Shown here in pieces: positions 17,416 to 37,614 of a stretch of 64,000 nucleotides of DNA. Position 1 is the first letter of the stretch; every line of letters starts with the position of its first letter. The stretch spans positions 104,652 through 168,651 of the forward strand of contig SWDS01000002.1 of the NCBI GenBank assembly GCA_005116745.1. Direction: 5' to 3'. The notes beneath the pieces are model-generated. The model was not told where the DNA came from and searched no databases. It worked only from the letters and a program-made list of their open reading frames with translations. This DNA comes from Nitrospira sp. (GTDB lineage: Bacteria; Nitrospirota; Nitrospiria; Nitrospirales; Nitrospiraceae). The translations under genes were made by a program, and so were the position numbers.

Positions 17416-18441
17416 CTAGTGGCACACTCGATCGGTGATACTCCAGTATTCAAAAACATCATGAGGAAATGGCCTTTCCCGCTCAAACCTCTGTGCCATG
17501 GCAGAATAGCTCACAAGGTCTCTCAAATAGAGCGACTTCCAGTCATCGACGCACTGTTGCATCCTACTCACCCAATCATGATCCAGAATATCCAACTGGG
17601 TACAACATGAGGCGATACGAGAGGCATCTTGTGTACCCAATGAGATCGTGGCTCTCCCCGTTTGAAGCCCGGCAGCGATCCGCATCAGTGACAACCATTG
17701 CCATCCTTCCCGCTGTGGAATATTGACGATCACTTTCCCTGATCGATTGATGGCGTTGCGGCGATTCCTTGAAATAAATTGCCGAGGACAGGCCACCGAT
17801 AAGCCTTCCTTCTCCAACAATGCAAGCAATTTAGTCCGATATTCCGTCATGGCCCCTGTAAACACAAGATCGTGAACGGTATCAGACGCCTTACCAACCG
17901 CTTCGCATGGACCATCCCCAAGGGCGGGGAACGGGATCGTGCGCACATCTAGACCAGGCAACATAACCGATATGTTTCGCAATTCAGGCAAGTCGCCTAA
18001 GACAAAGAAACACCGTAGATAGGGCAAGCACTCCATGAGATGCCTGATCCGCTTCAAGATCGTAGCCGAATGCATATAATCGTTCTGACTACCAAGCGGG
18101 GCACCATGGAAATAGATCTGGCCATGTTGGAAATCCAAATGCTCGGTCATGATCACTGCGACTCGTTTCCGTGATGATCGGCAAAAATCCAGTAATACAT
18201 CTCTACTCTTTTCGGTGGGAAAACCTTCAATGACGACATTCAGAGACGACCGGCGTGGCTGTCTGCCTACGGAAACCGGATAGCCGTGCTGTCGGAAAGC
18301 AGTGACCGCAAAGCTCACCTGGTCACCAATCCCGTACAATTGATGATTGTAGACCCAACAATGGATGGAGGGCTTCTTCAGCGGGTGCCTCGTCTCGCCG
18401 CTTCGATAGAATCGACGGGATTTCCCCAATCTTGGAGCCAC
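17416..18441 (-). CDS. Putative glycosyltransferase, family not recognised
   Basis: 341 aa protein with weak GT-B character: an N-terminal half with VYNHQLYGIGDQVSFAVTAF, a central SDTVHDLVFTGAMTEYRTKL that resembles the start of a second Rossmann domain, and FISRNRRNAINRSGKVIVNI near residue 225, like CgeB-type proteins. I do not recognise a defined family. The only usable upstream start is a GTG at 18441, which makes the gene overlap the preceding one by 64 bp; no ATG exists before residue 95, so the true start may differ. Position between a GT and methyltransferases suggests glycan assembly. Confidence 0.6.
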   Translation of the reverse strand: MAPRLGKSRRFYRSGETRHPLKKPSIHCWVYNHQLYGIGDQVSFAVTAFRQHGYPVSVGRQPRRSSLNVVIEGFPTEKSRDVLLDFCRSSRKRVAVIMTEHLDFQHGQIYFHGAPLGSQNDYMHSATILKRIRHLMECLPYLRCFFVLGDLPELRNISVMLPGLDVRTIPFPALGDGPCEAVGKASDTVHDLVFTGAMTEYRTKLLALLEKEGLSVACPRQFISRNRRNAINRSGKVIVNIPQREGWQWLSLMRIAAGLQTGRATISLGTQDASRIASCCTQLDILDHDWVSRMQQCVDDWKSLYLRDLVSYSAMAQRFERERPFPHDVFEYWSITDRVCH

Positions 18442-20609
18442 GCCGCCTCGGCAGTGAGTGTACTCAGAATTTTGCGCTGAACCTCTTCAAGCGAGAGACC
18501 TGAGAAAGAGGGGATAGATCGTTTTGAGAGCAATTGTGCTTGTGCAAATTCGCCTTCGCTTTGCAAGATGGCATAGAATTCCTTGCCTTGACGGACTATG
18601 TTGAAATTATGAAAACCCTTCAAAACGACCTGGGCCGGTTCAGCGTCTTCTTCGCAGGCGAACAACTTCAACGCCGGAACACTTGCGGCAATACTTCGGA
18701 GCACCTCACTGACAGAATCCCCACGATGACATGAGGAATAGCCACCAGCCTCGGCCTTCTCCGGAGAAAAATCCCCTTCTCGCTGGAGAATGGCATAGTA
18801 TCGATCACGATGACGAATAATGTTGTATCCGGTTACTCCCTGACGAACGAGCTCGATCTCGGGTACTGCCTGAGGCCTGAAAAACCTGAGCCCTCCATGC
18901 CGACGATACACCGCTAGAACTTGGGCGGCATACTGGTACAAGGCCGGAAATGGCCTGAGCATTTTTGAAATCCATTGAACCAACTTGCGCCGTACTCCTT
19001 CGCGTCGCCCTCCGAGCGGGTGAAGGTATGTTCCTTCCAGTTCTTCCAAGGTATTGGCGTACATCCCAGGCGGAGCGCCATTTTTACAGTACTGGGCTAA
19101 TACCGACCAGTCATTCAGCTCGATGCGAGGATTTCCATACGTCTGAATCATGGCGCCGCTCAATTCCCACACCATGCCGAACTCCGTCTTAATTCGCAAC
19201 ATCGGCTGTGGAGGGCTTTCAAACACTCGTGCCCAGCCATGATTCTGAATCGTACAATCGCTCAAGGACAATTTCAGATTGTCGGAAGCAACTTCTGTTA
19301 GGTCAGACGTTCCTCTGAATTTCGTGTAGAGATCAGAAACCGAGCCCCAGAAGTTCTCGGCAAAACTCTGCCCTAAAAACTGCGTTTGCGCATGGACGAT
19401 AGTGCGCCTGTGCATGTCCCAATATGCGTCATGATCTTCAAGAAGCCGGCATATGCGGGTGGTCAGTTGCTCCACAAGAAAACGATCAAGCTCCGGCCTT
19501 CGATAATAGTGGTCGACCAAAATGCCTGTTAGCGCGTCTTTCTGCCAGACCTCATTTCGCACGCCGCGCAGAACAATCCCATTTTCCTCATCATGAACGA
19601 ATACCGAGGTCCCCACAGTGTCAGTCACGATTGGAAGCGCTCCCGCCCTCATGGCCTCCATAATTGAGACAGAATGCAGAGCCACACTGGGGAGCATGAG
19701 AAAATGCGCGCCGGCCATTAAAGACTGTATTTCATGGCTGGTCAGATAGCCTTGATCCCAGACGATACTTCGGCCAATCTCACCTTTGACCCAGGAGACA
19801 TCAACGCCATATTCGCGCAATTCGACATCGCCGGGCATTGTACTACGAAGCATCAGAAGGCCGTCTCGACCACTAGCTACAATCTCCTTCCAGAACCGCA
19901 AGACAAGGTGCCCGCCCCGACGAAAGAAATTCGCTGAATTCTGGTTGGCAGAGTTGATAAACAAGAATCGCGGCCTGGAAAGCGATGGTTTTTGCTCTGC
20001 TTCGTGCATAGAGAACGCATTGGCACTTAACCCCATCTTCGAGGAGAACAATTTCCTGTCGATGGTTGAGTCTGACAAAAACGAGCTCAGCGCATGAAGC
20101 GTGTCCGGCACATGGGAAAAAATTCCGAGACACAGAGGACTCGCAAAGATGCTTCGATAATGCTCCTTGAGTTCTTCATGGTTTTCAACATTGCCACTTC
20201 CTTGCTGAGCAAACGGGAACAGAACTGGCGCAAACGACTCGCAGTGAAAGACAAATGGTCGTTTGAGGGAGGGAAATGGAGCGGTATGATGAAATTCCAG
20301 GTCCCCCTTGAGAGCGGTTGTCAGAACGTGATCAGGGGGCCAGAAATACTCTTGATATCTCTTTGCAATAGAACTTCCATCACCTCGATCGTGACGATGC
20401 GCTTCCCACTTTGCTCTCTCTACCACAGTCCTGCGCACAGAAGAATCATCCCGGAACTTGCGATAGAGCTTGACGTTATCCCAGGCGGAAATTTTGATAT
20501 TCTCCGAAACATGATCGAACAATGCCCGATAGATCGGATGAAATCCATCCAATGGAATGTAGTGGCTAAGACTCCAAGGAATCGAGACGTTTAAGAGAGG
20601 ACTGGGCAT
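18378..20609 (-). CDS. Glycosyltransferase (GT-B) with two C-terminal YNIV/YYAI modules
   Basis: 743 aa. The central part is a family 4/1-type GT-B domain: PRFLFINSANQNSANFFRRG opens it and MLPSVALHSVSIMEAMRAGA, then LPIVTDTVGTSVFV, give the E-x7-type donor-binding region (residues about 310-345). The N-terminal 200 residues are unfamiliar. The C-terminus holds two copies of a short module: residues about 583-646 (GYNIIRHRDRYYAILQREG) and about 658-718 (NFNIVRQGKEFYAILQSEG). The same module recurs in the radical SAM protein (21605-25087) and the GT2 (25785-27056). Its role is unknown; by analogy with appended modules it may bind a glycan or a partner. Confidence 0.8.
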   Translation of the reverse strand: MPSPLLNVSIPWSLSHYIPLDGFHPIYRALFDHVSENIKISAWDNVKLYRKFRDDSSVRRTVVERAKWEAHRHDRGDGSSIAKRYQEYFWPPDHVLTTALKGDLEFHHTAPFPSLKRPFVFHCESFAPVLFPFAQQGSGNVENHEELKEHYRSIFASPLCLGIFSHVPDTLHALSSFLSDSTIDRKLFSSKMGLSANAFSMHEAEQKPSLSRPRFLFINSANQNSANFFRRGGHLVLRFWKEIVASGRDGLLMLRSTMPGDVELREYGVDVSWVKGEIGRSIVWDQGYLTSHEIQSLMAGAHFLMLPSVALHSVSIMEAMRAGALPIVTDTVGTSVFVHDEENGIVLRGVRNEVWQKDALTGILVDHYYRRPELDRFLVEQLTTRICRLLEDHDAYWDMHRRTIVHAQTQFLGQSFAENFWGSVSDLYTKFRGTSDLTEVASDNLKLSLSDCTIQNHGWARVFESPPQPMLRIKTEFGMVWELSGAMIQTYGNPRIELNDWSVLAQYCKNGAPPGMYANTLEELEGTYLHPLGGRREGVRRKLVQWISKMLRPFPALYQYAAQVLAVYRRHGGLRFFRPQAVPEIELVRQGVTGYNIIRHRDRYYAILQREGDFSPEKAEAGGYSSCHRGDSVSEVLRSIAASVPALKLFACEEDAEPAQVVLKGFHNFNIVRQGKEFYAILQSEGEFAQAQLLSKRSIPSFSGLSLEEVQRKILSTLTAEAAWLQDWGNPVDSIEAARRGTR

Positions 20610-20735
20610 TTTATGTTATGTCGCCGGTTCATTGGCCAAGAGATGTGCCAGACTGCACAACCAGCTTCGGCCGTACACTAAGAAACTAGTCGTTCTTTTC
20701 GCCGCCACACCCCAGGCTCTTCCAGATGTGGTGCG

Positions 20736-21608
20736 TTAGTGCACGGCCAAAAGTGGTTGGGGATACTCTTGAGTATATGCAAATGAGAGGTGGCGCCCAT
20801 CACGATTGAAGAAGAACCCGTTAGGACCACCCGGCGGATGTGACAGCAGAACCAGTACCATGCTGACCACCGCGTAAGGGCTTTCCGTCGATCCCTGATT
20901 CATTTCAGTACGGGCTTCGCCGGGCACCAACACGTTGATCTGAACATCCTTGCTCGGATACCTCAACACACATTCGGCCGCAAGAGATGCCCCCAGCGTA
21001 TTTAGAGCTGACTTACTGACATTATACGAGCCGAAACCCGGCGTCGATGCCCAGCCCGCAAAAGAGGACAGAAAGAGAATCCGAAAACCGTCGCCATGAT
21101 CTAAGAGTGGCATGGCCGCCTTACAGGTCAACCACTGCCCTGTCACGTTCGTTGTCAGGAGATTCGTCCAAGCGGCTGCACTCTGACCAGTGAGTGGGAA
21201 TGCAGTCTCTCCTGATTGAGGAAGGGCGGCGCTGTTCACCAACCCATAGAGGCTAGGGGTAACGAGCTGGATATTTCTCACCGCACGGGCAAGATCGTCC
21301 TCCGATCTAATATCCACCGGAACAGCGATACAGCGCCTGACATCGATACCAAGCGCTGCGCCCTCGTCCACCGCTTCACGTAATTTCTCGATTCGTCGCC
21401 CTGAAATAAAGACCCGAGCTCCTGCAGCAGCAAGCGCCAGTGCAATACATCGTCCATACCCAGTGCCCGCGCCCGTTATCCAAAAATCTCTTCCCTTAAG
21501 CCGCTCCCATCTCGCTTGCGGCAAGCCGAAACGATGTTCCCGCCAAGAAGCCGGATGGACGTTTTGCAAAATGCCTGGCGTTATAATGCTTTTCTGGAAC
21601 AACCTCAT
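20736..21608 (-). CDS. Short-chain dehydrogenase/reductase
   Basis: 290 aa classical SDR. DFWITGAGTGYGRCIALALA is the NAD(P)-binding TGxxxGxG motif; GLVNSAALPQSG replaces the usual NNAG with NSAA; ILFLSSFAGW supplies the catalytic Ser and YNVSKSALNTL the Tyr-x3-Lys pair. An N-terminal extension of about 35 residues precedes the fold. It starts by a 4-bp overlap with the upstream radical SAM gene, which ties it to that protein. The substrate, probably a sugar or lipid intermediate, cannot be read from sequence. Confidence 0.88.
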   Translation of the reverse strand: MRLFQKSIITPGILQNVHPASWREHRFGLPQARWERLKGRDFWITGAGTGYGRCIALALAAAGARVFISGRRIEKLREAVDEGAALGIDVRRCIAVPVDIRSEDDLARAVRNIQLVTPSLYGLVNSAALPQSGETAFPLTGQSAAAWTNLLTTNVTGQWLTCKAAMPLLDHGDGFRILFLSSFAGWASTPGFGSYNVSKSALNTLGASLAAECVLRYPSKDVQINVLVPGEARTEMNQGSTESPYAVVSMVLVLLSHPPGGPNGFFFNRDGRHLSFAYTQEYPQPLLAVH

Positions 21609-24600
21609 ACTTCAACGGCACTACACGACCTGTTATTGTTTTGGCCTAGCGCCAGGATTTCATTTTCAACGGCGTCACGGGATACGTCGCGGATGACCCC
21701 CGGCATCTCAATGACGTCGATCTCGGTCAGATCAATAGAACCTAACGCATGCGGCATACCATAGATCCAACCTTCATAGGAAATGACGTCATAGCCTTCC
21801 TCCGGCATGGCACGAAGTAAAACAGGCGATTTCGTAAACCCGGACGCGCGGGAGCGACCGTCAGTTGTGGCGACAGGAATCTCCCCCGCTTCCCCTCTGA
21901 TTTTCCGAATCATCCCGTCAACTTCAGCAATGGCTTCTCCGACCAGCATGCCGGGAATCGACGCGAGCAAGCCGGAATCCCATTCCACATAGGCCCCATG
22001 AGGCACCCCGTAGAACAGGCCGTCAAATTTCACGAGGTTGTAATTGCCGATGGTCCACAACAATTCCGGTTGAGCATTCTTAGTCGCGACGGAGAGGATA
22101 GCGAAATCTTCTCCATGTACCGGCACTCCGGACGTCGTCTTGGTACCGGTGCCCCGTCCGGTCACAAGGCGTATGATGCGCTTCAGCGGCTCTTTGACAT
22201 AGGCGACAGCTACCGCGTGCGGGAGCAGACGGGCAAGTTGCAGATCACTCAGGTACCCTCCGGTTCCGCTGTTAAAACGTTCCTGACGGATGAGACGCCG
22301 AAGCTCCTCTTCAAATGATGGAGGCAGTAGCTCGGCCATCTGACGCCATACACTAACATTGCGTTTGCTTTCTCCCGTGCTCTTGGATTTTCTTTCGATC
22401 GATGATCTCCGACCAAACGGATTTTTTAAGGCTTCCTGATCCACGGCAATATACATCTTGCCGAATTGCAGGATGCGAGGTTTGCTGGGGATCGTCGCGG
22501 ATTCAGACATGTCGCCCACGCTATCCACTCGCATATAGGATCCGGACGCGCGCTGCTTCTTTTGATCATCGTAATGACCGCGTGAATTCGCCCATCGACC
22601 ACTCTCTTCAATAACCGCGACAAGCTCCTCTTCGGTTGGATACCGTAGAATTCCCGCGATTGCGTCCGACTCAGGGCTTGTCACGTCAACACTGCTCAGT
22701 GCGGCGGGAACGCCATAGTACCAGCCGTTGTAGAAAAGGATCACATGCGTGTCCATTTTACGCACCATGCGGGGCGATTCTCCCACGATCCCGAATAACG
22801 GAGGCTCCGCCAACGGTTTGTCGGCATCCAACGTTTGAGTATCTTGCGCAGGGTACATAGGAAGTGCTTTTGCTGGACGCGCCGGGGTTTCCTCAGCGAG
22901 AGGCGACCGCTGGCTGGCAACTTCAAGCGCCCGCTCCTCTTCCGTAGGACTCAGGATATTTCCGGAATCTTTACCCCCCGCCACTTCAAATTCTCCGGCG
23001 CTGATTGCGTCGCCATTCGCTGAACCAGTTCGCGCTTTGTCGCGATTGAATTTGACGTCCTCAATTACCCGATGGGCCCAAGCTCCCACATTAAATCCCG
23101 CATCGTAGAGGGCAAGGACGATACGCTCAAACCGCTCTTTTCTTACCTGAGCGTCGATGTACGGATCGGTGCTGTGCCACTGGTCTGCGGGAAGGGCTCT
23201 CGGATACTTCTCGTACATTATTTCCTGAGGTTCCTTCAACACAATGTTGTGGGAAGCCGGATCAATCCAGTAAACGCTGCCGTTCACCAAGATCAGCGGG
23301 TTGATGTTCGCCAGCCGACCGATGTACTTACGATTCTTGAGAATGAGATCAATCCCCTCTTCCACGTCTTGATCCGTTTCTCCCGGAACGCCGATGACCC
23401 AGTTAACCTCGGTAAAGATCCCCACCTCCCAGCAGTCCTTTAGGTTCTGGGTGATCATGTCAGTCGTGTATCCCTTCATCTGCAGCCGTAACGTGCGCTC
23501 TGAAAAAGCGTCGATCCCGAAACGAAGCGCGACAAAATTGGCCTCCCGCAGCTTCTCGAAGAAGGCCCGGTTTTGCTTCCTGTTGACGCGGAGCTGGCCG
23601 GTGAGTTTTACCTTCCGATGAAGACCACGACGAATAATCTCATCACAAATCTCCATGACTCGCTCGGGCATACCGCCAAGGTCGCTCTCGTTAAACATGA
23701 ACAGATGGCAGCCCTGTCCGACCAACCACTCCAGTTCATCCACAAAGTTTTCCTTGGTACGAATGCGCCAGTAGAACCGTTCGGCGCAGAACGTACAGCG
23801 CGACCAGCGACAACCCCGGCTTGCGATAATGGGCGTCAATTGGTAGTCATTGAAGTTTCTGTACACGCTCAGGTCGCACCACTCATACTTGGGGAATTCG
23901 ATCTGATCGAGGTTATGAATCATCGGCGCCGGAATATAAGAATATTCGGGCGTATCGAAACGGGACAGTACACCCGGCTGATTGAACGGCCGCTCACCCC
24001 CGGCCAATGCCTCTAACAGCGGACCCGCCGTGAGGTCTGCTTCGCCGATGCACATGTAGTCGCATTCCGGAAATGCGCGAAGGCCGACATCCGCGTTGTA
24101 GCAACTGAACCCGCCCACCACAATCATGATATCGGGTAACTGGGCCCTGACGCCGAGCGCAACCGCCCGCGCCGCCGCCTCATTGCATCCTTGGATCGAA
24201 AGCCCGAGTACTTTTGGCCGCGCTGCAACCAAAGCCGCGATCGTCTCGTCGATGACCGGTCTGAAGAACTCCAATACTTCGTTGCGCCCGGTTGGACCGG
24301 AAGCCCCTCCCCCTGTTGCAGTCCACAGGTCGTAGTGCTCCGCCTGCCAAGGATCCTCCGGCAAAGCCAAATCACCAGGAAGCGTGATGCAGCCACCCAT
24401 GTCAAAGAGCCGGTGAACATGAAACCGATGGTAGGAGATAATGTCGAGATCGACGATCTGAAAGGACACCGCAGTCTTCTTCAGGGCATTGTTCAAATAT
24501 CCCAATCCATTGGGCATCAAGGACAGGTTACGTGAGGGGCAGTCGACAATAGCCACGTCCAGATCCTTCCTGAACTGGACCTCTGGGAGTTCGATCGGAT

Positions 24601-25087
24601 AAATATTGCGTGGTAACGGCGTCCATCCGCGGGCCGGGATGACGTCGGGCGCAATCTCCGCCAAAACCGTGAGATCGACTATAGTGACCGATTGAGGCAA
24701 CTGCTTCGTCATCTGCATGCGTGATAACGCCAACGTTTCGCAGAGGAACGCTGTTTGCGTTTCGACGGGCAACGCCCCAAGCTTGATACTGGCTAAGCCA
24801 TGCAGCTGGTGCATCTCCGAAAGATTTTCGTACAACACAACGCCGATAATCCGAGCATTGAGACTAGGGACATGCTGCAAGAGATAATCTATAAACCTCT
24901 TCGAACCAACCAGGGTCAGGCCTGGCAATGTCATAAGATGCGCTCCAAGCGCACGCAAACACGCCACATCATCTGACCCATTGTCGAAGGCGAAGCATTG
25001 GTGAGGACTGAACGTGACACGTGCCCCCTCAACCTTAGCAGTTGCATGGCCTTTCTTAAGAGTCAAAACGACGGCTGTATCGGTCAT
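21605..25087 (-). CDS. B12-binding radical SAM protein with C-terminal repeated modules
   Basis: 1160 aa from the ATG at 25087, which has GAGG six bases upstream. Residues about 175-380 look like a cobalamin-binding domain (VLGLSIQGCNEAAARAVALG, IMIVVGGFSCYNAD). The radical SAM core follows with the Cys-x3-Cys-x2-Cys cluster motif in RGCRWSRCTFCAERFYW near residue 425. The last ~400 residues are not part of that fold; they contain copies of the module at 22604-22777, 21892-22072 and 21614-21829, and a degenerate piece near 22430-22490. Such proteins often do methyl transfer or carbon rearrangement; the substrate is unknown. It is likely co-translated with the SDR gene. Confidence 0.87.
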   Translation of the reverse strand: MTDTAVVLTLKKGHATAKVEGARVTFSPHQCFAFDNGSDDVACLRALGAHLMTLPGLTLVGSKRFIDYLLQHVPSLNARIIGVVLYENLSEMHQLHGLASIKLGALPVETQTAFLCETLALSRMQMTKQLPQSVTIVDLTVLAEIAPDVIPARGWTPLPRNIYPIELPEVQFRKDLDVAIVDCPSRNLSLMPNGLGYLNNALKKTAVSFQIVDLDIISYHRFHVHRLFDMGGCITLPGDLALPEDPWQAEHYDLWTATGGGASGPTGRNEVLEFFRPVIDETIAALVAARPKVLGLSIQGCNEAAARAVALGVRAQLPDIMIVVGGFSCYNADVGLRAFPECDYMCIGEADLTAGPLLEALAGGERPFNQPGVLSRFDTPEYSYIPAPMIHNLDQIEFPKYEWCDLSVYRNFNDYQLTPIIASRGCRWSRCTFCAERFYWRIRTKENFVDELEWLVGQGCHLFMFNESDLGGMPERVMEICDEIIRRGLHRKVKLTGQLRVNRKQNRAFFEKLREANFVALRFGIDAFSERTLRLQMKGYTTDMITQNLKDCWEVGIFTEVNWVIGVPGETDQDVEEGIDLILKNRKYIGRLANINPLILVNGSVYWIDPASHNIVLKEPQEIMYEKYPRALPADQWHSTDPYIDAQVRKERFERIVLALYDAGFNVGAWAHRVIEDVKFNRDKARTGSANGDAISAGEFEVAGGKDSGNILSPTEEERALEVASQRSPLAEETPARPAKALPMYPAQDTQTLDADKPLAEPPLFGIVGESPRMVRKMDTHVILFYNGWYYGVPAALSSVDVTSPESDAIAGILRYPTEEELVAVIEESGRWANSRGHYDDQKKQRASGSYMRVDSVGDMSESATIPSKPRILQFGKMYIAVDQEALKNPFGRRSSIERKSKSTGESKRNVSVWRQMAELLPPSFEEELRRLIRQERFNSGTGGYLSDLQLARLLPHAVAVAYVKEPLKRIIRLVTGRGTGTKTTSGVPVHGEDFAILSVATKNAQPELLWTIGNYNLVKFDGLFYGVPHGAYVEWDSGLLASIPGMLVGEAIAEVDGMIRKIRGEAGEIPVATTDGRSRASGFTKSPVLLRAMPEEGYDVISYEGWIYGMPHALGSIDLTEIDVIEMPGVIRDVSRDAVENEILALGQNNNRSCSAVEV

Positions 25088-25290
25088 CACTTACCTCACA
25101 TCAAAGTTAAAGAATCGATGCTTCAACACGACCCGGCCCTGCGCACGATTTATCCCTTCCAGCGGTAAACGATGGAAGCGAGCGAGTACATACAACATGC
25201 GTACGGATGCTCCCTCAAATAACTTTCAGCCTGTTCCCATTCGAGTCATCATCAACTTTTATCGTCATCCACTGAAGCGTCACAGCCAAA

Positions 25291-25752
25291 TCATCGCCCT
25301 ACAGGCTGAGTTGCATATTTGGGAAGAGATCGCACTTCATCGATAGTGGCGATCAATCGTGCTCCGTCCCACCCGCTGTTGGCGTCGCACAACGCCGCCA
25401 GCTCATCCGGTATCGAATTTTTGTTGATCGCGGGCATGGCGATAATGGGCTTATTGTGTCTCTTTGCCATTTCAACTTCCATATCAACCCAAACTCGGGC
25501 GCTCCGAATCTCATACACCCCGGCAAGCAGCACAACAACATGCACGGGAATAATCTGGCTTTCCAGAGAAGTTCGAATAAATCGGCCTCCTGCTTCCGTA
25601 TTCGGACTTATTGCTGGATCATGCCACGGCAAGCTGAAGTTCCGCCAAAGAAGCCCCGGTATCTTGTCCATCAGTTCGGTAAATTTCGTCCAATCCTCAT
25701 GAAAACGCCAGGCATGAGTAATAAAGAGGTCATAAGTTTTTGAATTCCCCAT
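25291..25752 (-). CDS. TIR-like ThsB/DUF1863 domain protein
   Basis: 153 aa, a single domain. It opens KTYDLFITHAWRFHEDWTKF, then LWRNFSLPWHDPAISPNT and VHVVVLLAGVYEIRSARVWV, and ends with PIIAMPAINKNSIPDELAAL. That is the pattern of the TIR-like DUF1863 (ThsB) family, whose characterised members are Thoeris anti-phage sensors making a cyclic ADP-ribose-type signal for ThsA. No ThsA (SIR2/SLOG) gene is near, so the role here is open. It lies between two module-bearing polysaccharide proteins: 32 bp from the GT2 stop upstream and about 200 bp before the radical SAM gene. Confidence 0.82.
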   Translation of the reverse strand: MGNSKTYDLFITHAWRFHEDWTKFTELMDKIPGLLWRNFSLPWHDPAISPNTEAGGRFIRTSLESQIIPVHVVVLLAGVYEIRSARVWVDMEVEMAKRHNKPIIAMPAINKNSIPDELAALCDANSGWDGARLIATIDEVRSLPKYATQPVGR

Positions 25753-25784
25753 GATGAGCGTTCCCGAATCGATCTCTACCTGGT

Positions 25785-27056
25785 CTAACCCCTAGATGCC
25801 ACGTGGACTTTTTCTAGAATCACTTCGTAGTTGCTGGCAACCAGTAGATCCGGGTGAACTCTTCCTTCGTCCGTCGACAGATCAAGATGGCCAATACTCT
25901 TTGGCACAGCAAAATACTCATCTTTGAATTTTACGAGGTTGTACCTCTTTACAGAGCACAGGAGCGTCGGAGCGTCTGCCGGCACTTCATAATTGATTCG
26001 ACGTGGAAGGATGCGATCTTGATACATAGCGCGAAGTCTTCCTGCGACGCGTGGTCCTAGCAACGAAACAATACCTTTGCGAAATGGAATCCAGATTCGA
26101 TCTCCAAGATACTGCCCGATGATTTCTTTCGCCAGTGATAGCCATAACGACCACACCGCCCAAGGTGAATAGCCGCTTTGCTCAGTTAAGTCGGCATACC
26201 GAGTTTCAAGCTCAGAACCGATGCGCCGATTCCGCATCCGCAAAGCCCAGATATCGTGATTTTCACGAAGCGGTTGAAATCGGCCTGTGGAAAACGCTTC
26301 CACAGCCGTCAGCGCGTGGCCATTAATATGTGGGTACGCCTTTTCCAGCAGCTGTTTCAGGGAAGCCCGCTGGCCATTTGTGCCAATTGGGTCCGGATGA
26401 GCGAAGTGCCACAGCGCCACAGCCTCATCATGCCACACTTCCTGCCAACCGGCATTGATCAGGCGCCACCCCAAATCATAAGGCCCACATAGATAGCCTC
26501 GATAACTGGGATGTTCATCAAAACCTCCGAATCGGATCGCGTCGGCTCGACGCACTGTCATACAGGCACCCTCATTGACAATGAGAGGCCACCATTGCCA
26601 GCGCTCGCTATCCTTGAGTGTCTCAGCGTCGGTCAGTCCTTCGGGATAGAGGAGAGACGTGCGCCATTCATAGTGCATAAGCACCAGTGGAACAGCCGAT
26701 CCCCCGGACTCTATTTGAAATGAACGAAATACGGAACGCACGAAATCAGGCGGAAACACCGCATCGCTATCGCACACACAGATCAGCTCACCACGCGCAT
26801 GCAACAAGCCGACGTTATAACCGACATGTTTGTGATAGATACCCTGTTGGTTGCACGTGATGACGACATCTGCCTTCTTCAACACTTCGTCGACGACGCG
26901 GTCATAGACTTCCACCCATATCAGCTCATACTTATCTTTCGGCACATCTTGTTGTAGCAGCCAATCCAGAGTGGTGAACCTCTCGCGACATCCCCAATCT
27001 AATAGAATGATGGATAGGCGGGGAGAGGAAGGCGATACGCTTTTGTGAACAATCAT
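25785..27056 (-). CDS. Glycosyltransferase family 2 with C-terminal YNLV module
   Basis: 423 aa from the ATG at 27056 (AGGA ten bases upstream); a TTG at 27128 would add 24 residues without a ribosome site. The GT-A domain has RLSIILLDWGCRERFTTLDW, ICVCDSDAVFPPDFVRSVF (DxD) and RGYLCGPYDLGWRLINAGWQ, the galactosyltransferase-like G-W-x-x-x-D segment. The final ~60 residues (25788-25970; APTLLCSVKRYNLVKF then DEYFAVPKSIGHLDL) are a copy of the module found in the two downstream proteins. It follows the Wzt gene by about 250 bp. Specificity unknown. Confidence 0.85.
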   Translation of the reverse strand: MIVHKSVSPSSPRLSIILLDWGCRERFTTLDWLLQQDVPKDKYELIWVEVYDRVVDEVLKKADVVITCNQQGIYHKHVGYNVGLLHARGELICVCDSDAVFPPDFVRSVFRSFQIESGGSAVPLVLMHYEWRTSLLYPEGLTDAETLKDSERWQWWPLIVNEGACMTVRRADAIRFGGFDEHPSYRGYLCGPYDLGWRLINAGWQEVWHDEAVALWHFAHPDPIGTNGQRASLKQLLEKAYPHINGHALTAVEAFSTGRFQPLRENHDIWALRMRNRRIGSELETRYADLTEQSGYSPWAVWSLWLSLAKEIIGQYLGDRIWIPFRKGIVSLLGPRVAGRLRAMYQDRILPRRINYEVPADAPTLLCSVKRYNLVKFKDEYFAVPKSIGHLDLSTDEGRVHPDLLVASNYEVILEKVHVASRG

Positions 27057-27302
27057 CGAAATAATATCCTGAGAAGGTCTGTTTAACGAACACAATAATT
27101 GAGGCGTAGAATCATCTACTTCGCTCAATTGCTAGAACTAGAATGGAGAGCAACACGATTCCCAGCGACTTTCGCACTGGGCTTGAAAGCGCATGAATAC
27201 GACACCGCATAATGAGCTTGAGAAGTTCACTTCAATGCGCTCAGCCTCTATCGAACATTCGAATGGCGCATAATTGCTTCTTCAAAAGTCTTGCTCGTGA
27301 GA

Positions 27303-28637
27303 TCAAGATCGCGAATAAAACTGCTCCTCAAGGACCTCGAAGTTCGTCGCAAGATCGACAAGACCGTCAAATGGTCGGTCGCGGTCCAAGCACACCAAGC
27401 AGTGCGCAATCGATCGGCGAACATCCAATACACATCCGCCCCGTGTGCCATCTACCTGCATCACACCAAGATCAAGAAAATAATCTCCAGGACTTATGCT
27501 AAGAACGAACGCAAATTTAAAGACTCGTGCCTCTCCGCCAGAGATTGGCTTTAATTGCTCTCCCATAATGATTGTATTTGTGGCATAGACATATATTCCC
27601 TCCACCGTCTTGATGCAAAATCCAACTGCGGGCTCCTGTACATCTCTAAAGAATGCCGCCTTCACATAAATATTGAGCATGGATCGGAAAGAGACATCAA
27701 CGACATCCCACAAGCCTTCACATTGGAGTGCATAATCTACGATCTTAGCGTCGCCGTTGCCAAATCGCGTCTCGGTCTTATTGTAGCTTTTCCGGCCATG
27801 ACAAACATCCGCCATCGAGTGAGTACTTGCCATTTCCGAAACCATCCTATTTGCTCCACCTATCTCTTCTCTTATCGTTATGCTATGTGAGCCTTCCGAC
27901 AAGCTATTCCTGCCAAAGAGCAGCTCGTGATACTTATCGACAATCAACCCAGGCTCCCCGGTTGCTATCATCTTTCCCTGATCAAGCAAAACCGCCTGCT
28001 GCGCATAAGTTGTGATCAACGCCATACTGTGAGTAACGAACAAGATCGTGATACCTCGCTCGCGCAAGGCCGACAAATGCTCATAACACTTATGTTGAAA
28101 CTTCGCATCTCCTACTGCCAATGCCTCATCAATTATCAGAACATCAGGGTCTACGTGAATCGTGGCTGCAAACGCAGCCCGCACAAACATCCCCGATGAA
28201 TATGTTTTGACGGGCTGATCGAAAAACTCCCCGATGTCGGCAAACGCTTGAATGTGCGGCATGCGCTCGATCATCTCATCACGAGAGATTCCGAGTAATG
28301 CGCCATTCAGCATCACATTGTCACGTCCTGTGAAGTCGGGATTGAACCCAGCGCCGAGCTCGAGCAATGCCGCGACTCTCCCATTCACAACCACGCTGCC
28401 GTTTGTAGGTTGGACTATTCCCGCAATGATCTGAAGAAGGGTGGATTTTCCTGATCCGTTTCGTCCGATAATTCCGATGGTCTTCCCCTTGGGGATATCA
28501 ATGCTGACCTCATTGAGAGCCAAAAACTCTCGGTGATACCGTTTCCGGAATGGATGGAACGTCTCGAAAAGTCGCTCCTGTGGAGAAGCGAAGAGTCTGA
28601 ATTTCTTGGATACATTCCTAACTGAAATTGCAATCAT
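27303..28637 (-). CDS. wzt: ABC transporter ATP-binding protein, Wzt (O-antigen export)
   Basis: 444 aa. Walker A is GIIGRNGSGKSTLLQIIAG, the signature region YSSGMFVRAAFAATIHVDPD and Walker B VLIIDEALAVGDAKFQHKC. Residues about 250-444 form an additional domain (VGFCIKTVEGIYVYATNTII), like the Wzt C-terminal carbohydrate-binding domain that recognises the chain end. With the permease gene immediately upstream (18 bp) it makes a Wzm/Wzt exporter that moves complete undecaprenyl-linked polysaccharide across the inner membrane. Confidence 0.95.
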   Translation of the reverse strand: MIAISVRNVSKKFRLFASPQERLFETFHPFRKRYHREFLALNEVSIDIPKGKTIGIIGRNGSGKSTLLQIIAGIVQPTNGSVVVNGRVAALLELGAGFNPDFTGRDNVMLNGALLGISRDEMIERMPHIQAFADIGEFFDQPVKTYSSGMFVRAAFAATIHVDPDVLIIDEALAVGDAKFQHKCYEHLSALRERGITILFVTHSMALITTYAQQAVLLDQGKMIATGEPGLIVDKYHELLFGRNSLSEGSHSITIREEIGGANRMVSEMASTHSMADVCHGRKSYNKTETRFGNGDAKIVDYALQCEGLWDVVDVSFRSMLNIYVKAAFFRDVQEPAVGFCIKTVEGIYVYATNTIIMGEQLKPISGGEARVFKFAFVLSISPGDYFLDLGVMQVDGTRGGCVLDVRRSIAHCLVCLDRDRPFDGLVDLATNFEVLEEQFYSRS

Positions 28638-28655: not shown

Positions 28656-29450
28656 CTACATTACGTCGGCGAATTGCGGCTTGAGTCGACCGAACACGTA
28701 GGCGCCCGTTAGAAGAAAAAGGAGTGCAACGCTCCAAAAGTACAAAGTCTGGCCAATGTCTGGAAACTGATGGGAGACCAACACACCACGATACCCCTGA
28801 ATAATATAGTCGAGAGGGTTATACCGCAATATCGGTTGGTACTGTTCTGGCAGATTATCAGGTGACCAGACGATGGGGGTCGCCCAAAACAAGAGGTTCA
28901 ACCCAATACCAAGCCCATGGGAGATGTCCCTATAGAATACTTGGATAGCTGACAGAAACCAGCCTAACCCTACGACGAGGACACAGGTGCAGAAAACAAA
29001 GTAGAGCATCAAGAGCATAGAGAGATGAAACGTGACGTGATAGTACGCCAACATCCCGGCCAAGAGGACCGTGAAGACTCCGTGAGGGACTAGACTTGCC
29101 GTCAAATGGACTATTGCGAGAACTTCTGAGGGAAAGACGGTCTTCTTGATAAAATGTGCGTTCCGGACGACGGAATCCGTGATCAATGTCAGCGATTCAT
29201 TGAAAAACAGCCATGGCACAAAGCCAGAGACAAACCAAAGAATGAATGGTGTATTACCCGGCCCCTGTGACCGAAATCCGATGGCAAAGACGAAATAGAA
29301 TATGAATATGACGGCTACCGGGTGTGCAAAAGTCCATAGAATCCCAGCAAGTGTCCCCGCATACCTACTCTGCAAATCTCGAGTTGCCAGGGCCAGAATC
29401 ATGGTCTGGTGGCGATACAGATTGCGAAACAGCTGAAGAATCAGCGCCAC
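28656..29450 (-). CDS. wzm: ABC-2 type transporter permease, Wzm
   Basis: 264 aa membrane protein with six predicted hydrophobic helices. It begins MALILQLFRNLYRHQTMILA and contains RDLQSRYAGTLAGILWTFAH, the N-terminal amphipathic signature of Wzm/TagG/KpsM permeases; TPIVWSPDNLPEQYQPILRY and NPLDYIIQGYRGVLV near the C-terminus are equally typical. The start is a GTG at 29450. It partners the adjacent Wzt ATPase in exporting a lipid-linked glycan. Confidence 0.93.
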   Translation of the reverse strand: MALILQLFRNLYRHQTMILALATRDLQSRYAGTLAGILWTFAHPVAVIFIFYFVFAIGFRSQGPGNTPFILWFVSGFVPWLFFNESLTLITDSVVRNAHFIKKTVFPSEVLAIVHLTASLVPHGVFTVLLAGMLAYYHVTFHLSMLLMLYFVFCTCVLVVGLGWFLSAIQVFYRDISHGLGIGLNLLFWATPIVWSPDNLPEQYQPILRYNPLDYIIQGYRGVLVSHQFPDIGQTLYFWSVALLFLLTGAYVFGRLKPQFADVM

Positions 29451-29536: not shown

Positions 29537-30475
29537 TTACACATTCCCATATCGCGTGTTCTTGATCATCGTGTAGCCCTTGATCAAGTCGCTGATTCCC
29601 GCATCAAGCGAGTACATCGTTTTGAATCCGGCGGCTTCGATTTTGGCGTTGGACACAATATAGTTCCGTTGATCCGGGTCCTTGCCGACCGGAGCATCGA
29701 GGAACACAAAGTCCGAAACCTGTTCCTGAATGTGTTCGCACAACTCGCGCTTCGACACGTTGGCATCGGACAGGCCGACGTTGTAGATCTGGCCTTTCAT
29801 CTTGTCGAAATGCTCGATGGCATGCTGGAACACACGCGACACATCGCGCACATGCACGTAATTGCGCTTGAAGGAACTTTCGAACAAGACTACGAATCGA
29901 TCATGGACGGCCCGGTACGTGAAATCGTTCACGAGCAGATCGATCCGCATGCGCGGCGACATTCCAAACACCGTGGCCAGGCGAAAACTGATCGCGTTTC
30001 CTCGCTGCATCAGCTCCTTCTCGATGCCCACTTTTTCCTTTGCATAGAGGGAAATTGGATTGAGCGGTGACTCTTCTGTACAGAAGTTATTTTTATCCCC
30101 GGTGCCATAGGCGCTGTTGGTGGTCGGCATCAACACCATCTGCTGCTTCGACAGCAGCTTCAGCATCAGAACTATGGCGTCATGGTTGACGGTGGTCGCA
30201 CCCACCGGATCCTGGCTGCACATCGGCGCCCCCACCAGCGCGGCCAACGGAATCACAATATCGGCCTTCTTGATCAACGGTGCCATGACACTTTCGATCC
30301 GAATATCGCCTCTCACGACCGAAAAGTTGGGATGATGGCACATATGGTTGAGGCTGGACTGCTTGTACATGAAGCTGTCCAACACCGTCACCTTGTGGCC
30401 GAGCTGAAGAAGATCTGGGACCATGGTAGAGCCAAGATAACCCGCGCCGCCCGTGACAAGGATGTTGAAATTCAT
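29537..30475 (-). CDS. NAD-dependent sugar epimerase/dehydratase
   Basis: 312 aa extended [23 protein letters not shown] is the Rossmann motif, PTTNSAYGTGD carries the catalytic Thr/Ser and YAKEKVGIEKEL the Tyr-x3-Lys. The ATG at 30475 is chosen because AAAGGA lies seven bases upstream; an ATG at 30505 would add ten residues without such a site. It lies directly downstream of the HddC-like nucleotidyltransferase, so it probably acts on the nucleotide sugar (perhaps GDP-heptose or a derivative) made by that enzyme. Reaction not determinable. Confidence 0.87.
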   Translation of the reverse strand: MNFNILVTGGAGYLGSTMVPDLLQLGHKVTVLDSFMYKQSSLNHMCHHPNFSVVRGDIRIESVMAPLIKKADIVIPLAALVGAPMCSQDPVGATTVNHDAIVLMLKLLSKQQMVLMPTTNSAYGTGDKNNFCTEESPLNPISLYAKEKVGIEKELMQRGNAISFRLATVFGMSPRMRIDLLVNDFTYRAVHDRFVVLFESSFKRNYVHVRDVSRVFQHAIEHFDKMKGQIYNVGLSDANVSKRELCEHIQEQVSDFVFLDAPVGKDPDQRNYIVSNAKIEAAGFKTMYSLDAGISDLIKGYTMIKNTRYGNV

Positions 30476-30517
30476 AGATGTGTCCTTTTCTGTTGATTGA
30501 GCCATGATCGCACAAAC

Positions 30518-31219
30518 CTAGCCAGCTAGCAGGGTGGCGGCTCGATGATAGTCGTCAGGCACACCGATGTCGATAAACGTGCCCGCGAACTCGATCCCAA
30601 ACAACCGCTGCCCTGCCGCGAGTGCGCCTGGAAACAGGTCGTTTTCTAAGGACAGCTTTTCACCGAAAGTCCGAGCCCCGGACAATACGCGTGGGTGCAC
30701 CCAATAGACTCCCCCGTTGGCAAGACGAGCCCCTTGCTCTACGCCCGATTTCAGCGACGTAATCCGTCCCTCAGACGACAGCTCGATGCCCATGTACCGC
30801 CCCTGCTCACTCGTTCTAAACAAGGACAAGCCCCAGTCTGCGTCATGTTCCAGGGCATAGGCATTCAATACACTCCAGTCCACCCCGAAGTAGGTGTCTC
30901 CATTCAGAAGCAAAAATGGCTCTCGAAGGCCAGTTTTCTCTGCGGCAAGCAGAAACGCACCGCCAGTACCCAATGGCTGTTCCTCAATAGCGTATTCCAG
31001 GTCCACACCTTTGTATCGAGCCCCAAAATGCGCCGTGATGGCTTCATGTCGGTACCCGACGGACAACACGAATCGGCTCACCCCCTGGCTGATCCAATAA
31101 TCGAGTTGATATTCAAGAAATGGGCGTCCGCTGATCGGAGCCATGGGCTTCGGAAGGTCGGGCACGGCGCTGCGCAACCTGGTCCCGAGCCCGCCGGCAA
31201 GAATCACGGCCGAGGGCAT
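30518..31219 (-). CDS. Sugar-1-phosphate nucleotidyltransferase, HddC-like
   Basis: 233 aa. It opens MPSAVILAGGLGTRLRSAV, then DLPKPMAPISGRPFLEYQL, the nucleotide-binding loop and lysine signature of NTP_transferase enzymes; LLLNGDTYFGVDWSVL is the metal-binding region. Length and the PKPMAPISGRPFLEY form match HddC (D-glycero-alpha-D-manno-heptose-1-phosphate guanylyltransferase) more than the longer RfbA or ManC types. An HddA-like kinase gene sits 3.7 kb upstream at 34881-35882, supporting a GDP-heptose pathway. Seven bases separate it from the ColD-like gene. Confidence 0.85.
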   Translation of the reverse strand: MPSAVILAGGLGTRLRSAVPDLPKPMAPISGRPFLEYQLDYWISQGVSRFVLSVGYRHEAITAHFGARYKGVDLEYAIEEQPLGTGGAFLLAAEKTGLREPFLLLNGDTYFGVDWSVLNAYALEHDADWGLSLFRTSEQGRYMGIELSSEGRITSLKSGVEQGARLANGGVYWVHPRVLSGARTFGEKLSLENDLFPGALAAGQRLFGIEFAGTFIDIGVPDDYHRAATLLAG

Positions 31220-31226
31220 GACGGTC

Positions 31227-32396: not shown

Positions 32397-32461
32397 AGAC
32401 ACCTATTCACATCCCACGGAAGCACTCGATACAGATTTCACCCCTCTGCAACCAGACGCCG

Positions 32462-34875: not shown

Positions 34876-34880
34876 CGCGT

Positions 34881-35882
34881 TCAGAAAAGCCCTTGAGGTT
34901 GGTACAGCACGACACGGCTGCCCGTGTTTTCAAACCGAAACGGGACATGCACCAGATGCTTCAACCGATCATGAACTTTTGCCTGCAATTCAGGTTTCAC
35001 AAACAACAGCAAGAATCCTCCCCCACCAGCGCCAAGGATCTTTCCGCCCACAGCACCCACTCGCATCGCCTCCTCATACAGATGGTCGATTTCAGGCGTG
35101 GAGACCCTGTCGGAAAGGCTGCGTTTACAGAGCCAGCTCTGATGAAGTAACCTGCCGACCTCCTCGATCGGTATCCTGGGGTTCTGAAGGATCATGATGG
35201 CTTCATCGACCATCTCCTTCATGCGATGGAGCTCTGCCTCTCGATTCTTGAAGTTGTCGATCTTTGATTTGGCGACCTCCGACGCGATTCGTGAGAATCC
35301 GGTAAAACACAGCATCAGATGTGATTGAAACTCATGCAACCGGTCCTTCGCCAGGATAATAGGTGAGACCTGGAAGGTATCGTTCCGCTTGAAGTCGATT
35401 CGATTGAACCCTCCGAATGCAGCCGAAATCTGATCCTGTGACCCGACATTCTCCTTGATGATGTGCTGTTCCATATTGATCGCTTGGGCGGCAAGCTCGT
35501 CTTTCGGAATGTATCTGCCCCGCAAGGCTGTTAACGCATGAATCAAGCCAACCGTAAACGACGAACTGGAGCCAAGGCCTGATCGCGCAGGTAAATCGCC
35601 GTCGTGATGAATCTCAAGCCCCTGATCGTCGCACCCTGCCCATGCAAGAATGGCCCGGACGGCCGGGTGCTTGATCTCCTCCACACGACGCACATTCTCG
35701 ATAATCGAATAGACGATGCGGTGCTTGTGCTCGAAGAAAGGCGGGAGATACCGGCAGCTGATATGGCAATATTTATCGATCGAGGTCGCCAACACAACTC
35801 CGCCATGCTCCTGATACCAAGCCGGATAGTCGGTGCCGCCGCCGAAAAATGAAATGCGGAAGGGTGTCCTTGTAATGATCAT
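34881..35882 (-). CDS. GHMP kinase, HddA-like heptose-7-phosphate kinase
   Basis: 333 aa. It opens MIITRTPFRISFFGGGTDYP, the sugar-binding first strand, and PARSGLGSSSSFTVGLIHAL is the GHMP phosphate-binding loop; ILGAGGGGFLLLFVKPELQA is the C-terminal motif 3. The opening and length match D-glycero-alpha-D-manno-heptose 7-phosphate kinase (HddA), first step of GDP-heptose activation together with HddC. It is directly followed by the Fcl-like reductase and preceded by the radical SAM gene. GmhA, which makes its substrate, is not visible in the window. Confidence 0.86.
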   Translation of the reverse strand: MIITRTPFRISFFGGGTDYPAWYQEHGGVVLATSIDKYCHISCRYLPPFFEHKHRIVYSIIENVRRVEEIKHPAVRAILAWAGCDDQGLEIHHDGDLPARSGLGSSSSFTVGLIHALTALRGRYIPKDELAAQAINMEQHIIKENVGSQDQISAAFGGFNRIDFKRNDTFQVSPIILAKDRLHEFQSHLMLCFTGFSRIASEVAKSKIDNFKNREAELHRMKEMVDEAIMILQNPRIPIEEVGRLLHQSWLCKRSLSDRVSTPEIDHLYEEAMRVGAVGGKILGAGGGGFLLLFVKPELQAKVHDRLKHLVHVPFRFENTGSRVVLYQPQGLF

Positions 35883-35930: not shown

Positions 35931-37487
35931 TTAATCACCGAGTAATTTTCGATGCAACCGGACCTTGGCCATGGCTTCGACGTTTGCCCGCTCGTTCTCT
36001 CCAAACTTCGTTTCAACCAATTTCAGGTACGCGGGATTCGAAAAGTACTGTTGCCATGCCTCATCCCGAAACTTCAGCACCTCCGTTGCCGTGACATGTT
36101 TTGTCGGAAGAGGCTGACTATCGTACGACAGGAAGGCGTACCCGCTATAGCTCTCCGGCAGCTTCCACCCTTGGTCTTTGGCCATGTGGTACATCGGACT
36201 TCCCGGCAAGGCTTGACAGGGATACATATTGGCCATTTCAGTGTTCAGTTCAAGCGCTAGATCCAATGTCTCCCTCATCGTCTCCAGCGTATCGTCAGGA
36301 AATCCAAAAATATAGTTACTGATGACGTTCATCCCCTCAGCCCGCACTTTATCGCACACCGCCCGGATATTGACTTCTTGGAAAGATCCCTTCGAGACCT
36401 CTTGCCGCACCGTTTGGTTGCCGGCTTCGATGCCAAGCGCCAGCCAATTGATGCCGGCTCGCCTAAACAGGTCGATATATTCGTGGCGTACCGTATCGAC
36501 TCTGGCGTAGGCCCACATCCGCAAAGCCAAATTGCGTTGGATAATGTCCTGCAACAGAGGCTCGTAGTACTTCCGATTCAAGAAGAACATTTCGTCGCTG
36601 ATGCGGATGGTTTCCACCCCCATCTCCGCCAGCTTCTCCAGCTCTCCGGCAATGAGCTTCGCGCTCCAGAAACGCATGCCACGGGACTGCGCCGCATCAA
36701 CTGAACTGCCATTATCGACACGATTGATGATGTTGATCATGCAGAAATCACAGGCAAACGTGCATCCCAAGGATGTGTAGATCGCTGCGAAGGGCGTACG
36801 CTTCTCATGATCGAACTCAGCATGCCAAAAATGCGCCCGATACAAATCCAGCGGACGCGTCCGGTATGGCAGAAGATCCCACGCGTAACCCGGCATATCG
36901 ATGTCCATTCGATCTTGCGGAACGACTGCTTGCGGCTCATTCAAGATCGGTCGACGCGTTTCCCTGGGATCGCCTGTCTTATATCCAATCCCCTTCACGG
37001 CCTCCAGCCCGGAACGGAGGTCAGTGCGCAGAAGATTGTGCAGCGCATACACACCTTCGTTCAGGAGCACGAAATCGACGAACGGAAGCTGCAGGACATC
37101 CATCGGCAAGGCACTGGTGTGAGACCCTACGAAACAGACAGAGAGATTCGGATGCTGTTGTTTGACTTCGCTGGCAAGCGCACTAGCCCCGATCATGCCA
37201 GTCGTTCCGGAATTGGGATTTTGTCCGTACACCACGAACACGATCAGGCGAGGGTTCGCACTCTGAATCTGACTCACGGCATCGGACAACGATAACTTTT
37301 CGGCGTCACAATCCAGAATCGCCACGCCGAAGCCCTTCGCTCGACATGACTGAGCAAGCAATAGTGCCCATGTCGGAGGTTCAATTGCCGAATAGGTCTT
37401 CGCCAATCCTTGATACGCTTGCAACGACGAATCGGCGTTGACGAAGAGCACATCCAGCCTTTTAGAAGGCATGCGTGATGTGGCCAT
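35931..37487 (-). CDS. B12-binding radical SAM protein
   Basis: 518 aa from the ATG at 37487 (a GTG directly precedes it). The N-terminal domain (DVLFVNADSSLQAYQGLAKT; LRVGSHTSALPMDVL-like strand near residue 120) resembles a cobalamin-binding fold. The radical SAM cluster motif is YTSLGCTFACDFCMINIINR near residues 240-247 (Cys-x3-Cys-x2-Cys). INWLALGIEAGNQTVRQEV and NVISNYIFGFPDDTLETMRE are standard core strands. Relatives include BchE-like methyltransferases and cyclases in polysaccharide loci; the substrate is unknown. It precedes the HddA-like gene by about 50 bp. Confidence 0.85.
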   Translation of the reverse strand: MATSRMPSKRLDVLFVNADSSLQAYQGLAKTYSAIEPPTWALLLAQSCRAKGFGVAILDCDAEKLSLSDAVSQIQSANPRLIVFVVYGQNPNSGTTGMIGASALASEVKQQHPNLSVCFVGSHTSALPMDVLQLPFVDFVLLNEGVYALHNLLRTDLRSGLEAVKGIGYKTGDPRETRRPILNEPQAVVPQDRMDIDMPGYAWDLLPYRTRPLDLYRAHFWHAEFDHEKRTPFAAIYTSLGCTFACDFCMINIINRVDNGSSVDAAQSRGMRFWSAKLIAGELEKLAEMGVETIRISDEMFFLNRKYYEPLLQDIIQRNLALRMWAYARVDTVRHEYIDLFRRAGINWLALGIEAGNQTVRQEVSKGSFQEVNIRAVCDKVRAEGMNVISNYIFGFPDDTLETMRETLDLALELNTEMANMYPCQALPGSPMYHMAKDQGWKLPESYSGYAFLSYDSQPLPTKHVTATEVLKFRDEAWQQYFSNPAYLKLVETKFGENERANVEAMAKVRLHRKLLGD

Positions 37488-37614
37488 CACTCTCTCTACC
37501 TCTCCTCGATTTGTAATGGGATATTTTCCACGAGAACGGCCTGTTCATCATGCTAGGCCCACTAAATAACTGCAATTATAAAAAACACGAGCTAAAAAGT
37601 CACCGTGGCCCGCT

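Follow-up and report, generated by a model that had tools for sequence, protein, structure and literature searches.

In a 64,000-nucleotide stretch of Nitrospira sp. DNA (contig SWDS01000002.1, positions 104,652 to 168,651; hereafter the window), three neighbouring genes encode a GT-B glycosyltransferase, a B12-binding radical SAM protein and a GT2 glycosyltransferase, in which a preliminary description made from the sequence had noticed copies of one short module. The question raised by this locus is what the module is and why it should be appended to enzymes of such different chemistry. It is apparently an undescribed accessory domain of ∼60 residues, predicted to fold on its own, and its carriers act on, or export, a surface polysaccharide that is linked to lipid, the clearest case being O-antigen of the Wzm/Wzt exporter type. 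The carriers and their module copies are listed below, with Pfam E values for the carriers and, for the modules, scores against a profile built from 46 module copies of other loci and none from the window.

18378..20609, − strand: GT-B glycosyltransferase with two C-terminal modules (Glyco_trans_1_4, E 5e-5, below the curated cut-off)
18684..18854, − strand: GT-B protein, module copy 1 (22.4 bits)
18465..18626, − strand: GT-B protein, module copy 2, the weakest (16.4 bits)
21605..25090, − strand: B12-binding radical SAM protein with three modules in its tail (Radical_SAM, E 1e-14; B12-binding, E 8e-6, below the curated cut-off)
22598..22777, − strand: B12/radical SAM protein, module copy 1 (36.7 bits)
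21902..22075, − strand: B12/radical SAM protein, module copy 2 (39.4 bits)
21647..21826, − strand: B12/radical SAM protein, module copy 3 (49.8 bits)
25785..27128, − strand: GT2 glycosyltransferase with one C-terminal module (Glycos_transf_2, E 1e-5)
25800..25973, − strand: GT2 protein module (56.1 bits), the copy used for modelling

All six full copies were recovered where the preliminary description had placed them, at scores of 16.4–56.1 bits, while the best of 25,420 shuffled window open reading frames (ORFs) reached 7.1 bits with the same profile. The similarity among the copies, whose failure to exceed chance had been set beforehand as a refuting outcome, was significant in the profile search, and unlike catalytic domains within one glycan cluster do carry one common appendage. 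The repeat is real, though the window by itself could hardly have proved it. With profiles made from the window copies alone and one protein left out at a time, the GT2 copy was found at 19.1 bits (E 2e-5), and the results for the GT-B copies (5.0 bits, protein E 0.36) and the radical SAM copies (6.6 bits, E 0.17) were marginal; the case therefore depends on the wider family. Across the whole of the near-complete genome (3.86 Mb), a profile of the six window copies matched those six alone at E values up to 10.

Iterated searches, with reading of the loci that they reached, yielded 96 module proteins and, within them, 225 matched stretches, of which a few are weak. A score filter retained 92 of the proteins, and removal of redundancy reduced these to 52. 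Copy number per protein ranged from 1 to 16, spacing within arrays was frequently 62 to 64 residues, and tandem arrays varied in length among relatives. Nine modules were found in a GT2 protein of Magnetobacterium (994 residues), twelve, by an earlier profile, in a protein of a related metagenome-assembled genome (MAG; locus L084), and sixteen in a row in a Nitrospinae radical SAM/SPASM protein of 1510 residues (L131:8362-12891), whose MAG has 39 module matches over its whole genome. The family is present in at least six phyla (Nitrospirota, Nitrospinota, Planctomycetota, Cyanobacteria, Desulfobacterota and, on plasmids, Azospirillum). Named carriers include Candidatus Magnetobacterium casense, Pseudanabaena frigida and a Spirulina MAG, further carriers are Nitrospinae, Planctomycetia, Anaerohalosphaeraceae and Desulfobacteraceae MAGs, and the plasmids are those of A. 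lipoferum, A. ramasamyi and A. argentinense. Its distribution is patchy: the module was detected in 10/39 near relatives at E ≤ 0.1 and in 13/295 genomes of the window's phylum at E ≤ 1e-5, and in the draws made for the three phyla to which the cyanobacterial, planctomycete and desulfobacterial carriers belong, the counts were 2/292, 2/294 and 4/297 genomes, respectively, at E ≤ 1e-3, the carrier included in each. Plasmid records returned the three Azospirillum only, the A. argentinense match covering merely ∼30 residues, and no module relative was found among viral contigs in three scans with three different alignments or among phage records at E up to 1.

Conservation was followed over 108 modules, as the percentage of those modules having a residue at the position concerned. 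The best-kept positions were P4 (96%), G30 (91%), N14 (89%), I58 (88%), P26 (81%) and D33 (81%), and the conserved polar residues N14 and D33 could form a site. A C-terminal ‘SSKFWKLR’ motif following a coiled coil was considered as a general feature and rejected, as it occurs in only 2 of the 52 non-redundant module proteins. Modules were also compared by enzyme class and by genome (48 proteins, 104 modules; classes assigned by hand from Pfam matches and similarity, with the window and two genomes of the same genus, L059 and L067, sharing one genome label). Modules on the same class of enzyme in different genomes had a likeness of 0.319, which 0/2000 shuffles reached, and those on different enzymes under the same genome label a likeness of 0.259 as compared with 0.245 at random, which 114/2000 shuffles reached.

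An AlphaFold2 model of the module, based on 51 sequences, was obtained with a pLDDT of 90.9 and a pTM of 0.75. The predicted fold consists of three consecutive strands, a short helix, a short strand and a C-terminal helix, the last in keeping with the helix anticipated in the preliminary description for this part of the module. A three-module model (alignment of 15 rows) had a pLDDT of 87.9 and a pTM of 0.47, which suggests modules arranged like beads on a string, each well predicted while their mutual placement is not; the shallow alignment may contribute to this.

The statement that no named domain was known for the module was upheld, with no significant match in Pfam, NCBIfam or the sequences of the PDB. 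When 51 modules were scanned singly, the best Pfam match was that of one member at E 0.0055 and the best NCBIfam match that of one member at E 0.02; against PDB chain sequences, the best profile match had an E value of 0.87 over 12 residues. No convincing fold match was returned by Foldseek, with best E values of 1.3 over all PDB chains and 0.16 in viral models. The best hit of a second structural aligner was MMOD, the inhibitory subunit of methane monooxygenase (6d7k chain D; Z 4.4, root-mean-square deviation 2.0 over 47 residues), a weak score that lies within the range of common arrangements and comes with 11% identity; we know of no functional link between MMOD and the module. A likeness to HicB that was noticed by eye (a strand followed by a ‘G-x-T/S-x-E-E-V’ helix) was not borne out in a profile-profile comparison with six HicB-like proteins (PF15919) of the same genome, where hhalign gave a probability of 8.4% over 16 columns; the structural score of the HicB-like 6u0i chain B against the module model was Z 2.6. 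No carbohydrate-binding module (CBM) was among the Pfam families matched by the 51 modules, although Pfam does not hold every CBM family, and one weak CBM_5_12 match (E 0.041, 13 residues) fell within a module of L074:3855-5339. The PqqD/RRE profile was absent from the ten Pfam families matched by the 51 modules at E up to 1. A literature search, which did not cover many subscription journals, found no paper concerning this domain by title or opening abstract, and the abstracts of reports on O-polysaccharide complexes and on the Wzt domain mention no such repeat (PMC11231755, PMC3482155, PMC9445017).

Which proteins carry the module was assessed for 53 of the 96 module proteins, scanned singly with Pfam, some of the glycosyltransferase matches lying below the Pfam cut-off. 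These carriers comprised 16 glycosyltransferases (GT2, GT-B or both), 7 radical SAM/SPASM proteins, 1 B12-radical SAM protein, 6 methyltransferases, 3 Wzt proteins, 3 sulfotransferases, 1 acyltransferase-3, 1 protein with an APS kinase domain and 2 that are mainly coiled coil; an F5/8C domain was found in 1 more, and the other 12 matched no Pfam family at the threshold applied. Epimerase, DegT, GHMP kinase, nucleotidyltransferase and transketolase families were matched by 0/53 scanned carriers at the thresholds used, whereas 130 module-free neighbours included 6 epimerases, 6 DegT proteins, 3 GHMP kinases, 2 nucleotidyltransferases and 3 transketolase-type proteins (counts cover the families listed, 25 of 155). 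This tally represents 130 of 202 module-free ORFs, with loci L077, L079, L059, L061, L063, L139 and L141 omitted, the Azospirillum loci L077 and L079 because longest-ORF-first gene calling is poor for GC-rich loci.

Several carriers have distinctive architectures. In three Wzt proteins (L062, L065 and L133) the module sits between ABC_tran and Wzt_C, while no module was found in the Wzt of the window genome. A methyltransferase, modules and a coiled-coil-like stretch occur together in one protein (L064:6067-7872), and for two module proteins (L064:5058-6092 and L133:7131-9554) the Pfam matches indicate mainly coiled-coil-like sequence. In three long glycosyltransferases (L061:7970-11098, L132:10375-13782 and L133:11058-14141) modules separate the N-terminal part from a GT-B domain at the C-terminus; this layout was seen in Magnetobacterium, Nitrospinae and Planctomycetota, and the N-terminal part is a GT2 by Pfam in L061 and L132 only. 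On an Azospirillum plasmid, L077:16427-19045 combines two modules and an APS kinase with an N-terminus that resembles a sulfotransferase by eye, and would unite donor supply, modules and, probably, transfer in one chain.

In the window, a Wzm/Wzt pair and glycosyltransferases lie beside the module genes, as in loci for O-polysaccharides whose export depends on an ABC transporter. Upstream of the carriers, in the direction of increasing coordinates, are the exporter genes and a set of sugar genes, of which two stood out in comparisons between genomes:

27303..28637, − strand: Wzt, O-polysaccharide exporter ATPase without a module (ABC_tran and Wzt_C)
28656..29450, − strand: Wzm, exporter membrane subunit (ABC2_membrane)
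34881..35882, − strand: GHMP kinase by Pfam, in 22/23 module-bearing genomes tested
35931..37490, − strand: second B12-radical SAM protein by Pfam, in 21/23 module-bearing genomes tested

When 30 window proteins were compared with the module loci, relatives of this kinase and of the second B12-radical SAM protein recurred. In whole-genome searches the radical SAM protein was found in 13/15 and the kinase in 14/15 module-bearing genomes. The draw of 295 genomes from the window's phylum provided a contrast, in which the 13 genomes with a module at E ≤ 1e-5 were taken as positive and the other 20 of 33 (E 0.002–0.1) were counted as negative. The B12-radical SAM protein was present in 12/13 module-positive genomes versus 44/282 others (Fisher p 9e-9), the kinase in 13/13 versus 65/282 (p 1e-8), and both genes in 12/13 versus 44/282. 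The pathway occurs without the module, and the reverse is rare.

The 23 genomes referred to above are the 13 positives of the phylum draw together with G313–G318, G674, G1101, G1102 and G1123; module-bearing genomes outside this count include G004, G011, G020, G513 (one match, E 4e-4) and those behind L081, L084 and L085. Genomes beyond the window's phylum were reached through the module, not through the pathway, and relatives of both pathway genes are present in the three loci on Azospirillum plasmids, to which the module alone had led. At least one of the two genes lies within 15 kb of a module on the same contig in 16/23 genomes, and both do so in 14/23; in G009, G050, G259 and G1123 the pathway genes are on other contigs of fragmented assemblies.

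The sugar gene set of the window (29537-37490) holds two epimerases, a nucleotidyltransferase, a DegT aminotransferase, two transketolase-like pieces, the GHMP kinase and the B12-radical SAM protein, and parts of it were found again close to modules in Azospirillum, Pseudanabaena, Desulfobacterota and a further Nitrospirota family. The transketolase-like pieces (32462-32998 and 33201-33800) are short adjoining ORFs resembling the halves of a transketolase; the first has a pyrimidine-binding match, and the second, a transketolase half by eye, has homologues in L134, L138 and L143. The kinase (34881-35882) and the nucleotidyltransferase (30518-31219) may resemble the GDP-heptose enzymes HddA and HddC. 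A full-text literature search found no paper on a cobalamin-dependent radical SAM sugar pathway of this kind, and the present finding flags such a recurrent sugar pathway with B12-radical SAM chemistry.

The preliminary description proposed a common ligand, acceptor or scaffold for the module-bearing enzymes. The restriction of the module to proteins that act on or export glycans and its tie to one sugar pathway speak for this, whereas a ligand specific to each locus is disfavoured. Since the module rides on chain-acting and exporting proteins, is absent from the donor-sugar enzymes among the scanned carriers and is tied to one pathway, we infer that it handles the chain containing that pathway's sugar. 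It may be a glycan-handling, carbohydrate-binding-like element for such a polysaccharide, a reading that we favour and hold to be not far short of an even proposition. Each module would bind the growing carbohydrate chain weakly, probably at the pathway's unusual sugar, and the same grip on polymerases, chain modifiers and exporter would keep all of them on one chain. Multiple copies (2 to 16) could provide avidity or processivity, weak binding being multiplied to hold enzyme and chain together. In the Wzt proteins that bear it, the module's position between the ATPase and the known carbohydrate-binding domain would let it contribute to cap recognition; according to the abstract of a report on Wzt, the carbohydrate-binding domain recognises the O-antigen cap (PMC9445017). 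The fuller proposal, that the new family is a common handle on nascent polysaccharide that threads one unusual-sugar glycan through a whole assembly line of polymerases, methyl-, sulfo- and acyltransferases, radical SAM enzymes and exporter, is more doubtful as a whole, though quite possible.

Several observations weigh against glycan handling. There is no credible match to any Pfam carbohydrate-binding family. Modules resemble one another by enzyme class more than by genome, which a strictly locus-specific ligand does not predict. The module-free neighbours include 3 GT2, 4 GT group 1 and 4 Wzt_C proteins, so the module is frequent and not obligatory in that group. Two Nitrospinae proteins (147 and 158 aa) are little beyond two modules, as could be expected of an adaptor no less than of a lectin, and an Azospirillum plasmid carrier fuses modules to APS kinase, a donor-supply enzyme. 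As to the pathway, Magnetobacterium (G265/G319) is without the B12-radical SAM protein and has its kinase on another, larger contig, G674 is without both pathway genes, and in G315 the pathway genes lie away from the modules, on larger contigs. As 44 genomes of the phylum have the pathway and no modules, the sugar does not require them. The association contrasts module-positive genomes with other genomes of the phylum and not with module-free O-antigen loci; within the window's own genus the figures for the radical SAM protein are 9/9 versus 13/31 (p 0.002), and shared ancestry explains part of the association.

The main rival is a docking scaffold, in which modules bind each other or one partner and thereby hold polymerases, modifiers, a chain-length ruler and the exporter in a membrane-side complex. 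It accounts at least as well as glycan handling does for the carriers with coiled coils, for the proteins of two modules and for module types that go with enzyme class, and overall we give it somewhat less weight. In its favour, the two mainly coiled-coil-like proteins and the stand-alone two-module proteins exist, modules occur on the APS kinase fusion, module type tracks enzyme class, and multiprotein O-polysaccharide assembly with a coiled-coil ruler is documented in the abstracts of work on such complexes (PMC11231755; WbdD coiled coil, PMC3482155). Yet up to 16 copies in one enzyme would be odd for docking, the triplet model (pTM 0.47) has no confident module-module packing, and no single partner recurs in all loci, where the donor-sugar pathway recurs instead; as only the 30 window proteins served as queries in this comparison, a partner absent from the window would be missed.

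Two further explanations were given less weight. Divergent linker or structural repeats without a ligand, spread by duplication and recombination among neighbouring genes, would suit the slightly raised likeness of modules from the same genome (0.259 vs 0.245; 114/2000 shuffles) and the differences in array length between relatives. Such repeats are nonetheless an improbable answer in the face of polar and glycine positions well kept over six phyla, conservation by enzyme class that 0/2000 shuffles reached, the restricted range of scanned carriers as compared with module-free neighbours, and the tie to the pathway in the phylum draw. Least probable, by a small margin, is an element like the RiPP recognition element (RRE; RiPPs being ribosomally synthesised and post-translationally modified peptides), which would bind a peptide or protein carrier modified by the radical SAM and transferase enzymes. 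In RiPP clusters one recognition unit is indeed common to unlike enzymes, 8/53 scanned carriers are radical SAM enzymes, and rSAM_ocin_1, a RiPP family with a cut-off of 282 bits, is matched by the B12-radical SAM carrier of the window at 107 bits, short of that cut-off. The surrounding genes are nevertheless of O-antigen type with a Wzm/Wzt exporter, 51 modules gave no Pfam PqqD/RRE match, and the order of elements in the predicted fold presumably differs from that of RRE.

Known systems offer partial likenesses to the module, and those closest to it in function are the Wzt carbohydrate-binding domain and O-polysaccharide assembly complexes that have coiled-coil rulers. CBMs are small, repeated and appended to enzymes with different catalysis, and are known mostly from secreted degradative enzymes; the modules, in contrast, ride on biosynthetic enzymes and have no credible Pfam CBM match. 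RRE domains differ in having no sequence match to the module, whose clusters are polysaccharide loci. The C-terminal domain of Wzt (PF14524) is, like the module, a non-catalytic part of an O-antigen export protein and, according to the abstract, binds polysaccharide (PMC9445017). PF14524 measures ∼140 residues and is found on Wzt, whereas the module has ∼60 residues and no Pfam match, and sits beside Wzt_C in the same proteins. The WbdD-type coiled-coil ruler is likewise an accessory part of glycan polymerisation complexes (compare L064:6067-7872), but is a coiled coil on a terminator, unlike the compact predicted domain on many glycan-acting classes described here. If the module does act as a handle for one glycan along an assembly line, it would be to glycan assembly what RRE domains are to RiPP synthesis and would explain how unlike enzymes stay on one substrate, and co-ordination of O-antigen polymerases, modifiers and exporters would become testable with 60-residue proteins. 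Should it bind the growing chain, it would also serve as a sequence marker, over six phyla, for proteins handling one class of surface polysaccharide.

The relation of the modules to the B12-radical SAM enzyme was further informed by a split gene in Pseudanabaena. There, a B12-radical SAM protein with 51% identity to the window protein over residues 20–701 ends before the modules, and the next gene encodes a free module protein with four module matches, one of them strong, that aligns end to end with the radical SAM tail of the window (24% identity, E 9e-19). In the window and in a Planctomycetia genome (L141), enzyme and module tail form one protein. This split suggests that modules probably serve the B12-radical SAM enzyme also in trans, and the tail probably belongs functionally to that enzyme, fused or not. 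A degenerate seventh copy, claimed in the preliminary description near 22430-22490, was not detected by the profile made without window copies; because this interval falls within the end-to-end alignment with the Pseudanabaena protein, it may be a decayed copy. The interval and one further neighbour of the enzyme are as follows:

22430..22490, − strand: possible decayed module between radical SAM copies 1 and 2, inside the tail alignment with the free Pseudanabaena module protein
25291..25752, − strand: TIR-like protein beside the module-bearing B12-radical SAM gene (PF08937, E 2.5e-4, just over the cut-off)

The TIR-like gene adjoins the fused enzyme gene in the window and in L141, and follows the free module gene in Pseudanabaena. 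This neighbour (PF08937, ThsB_TIR) is kept in three phyla (window 25291-25752, L134:5536-5958 and L141:13010-13453), and the genes lie inside glycan loci with no evident defence island.

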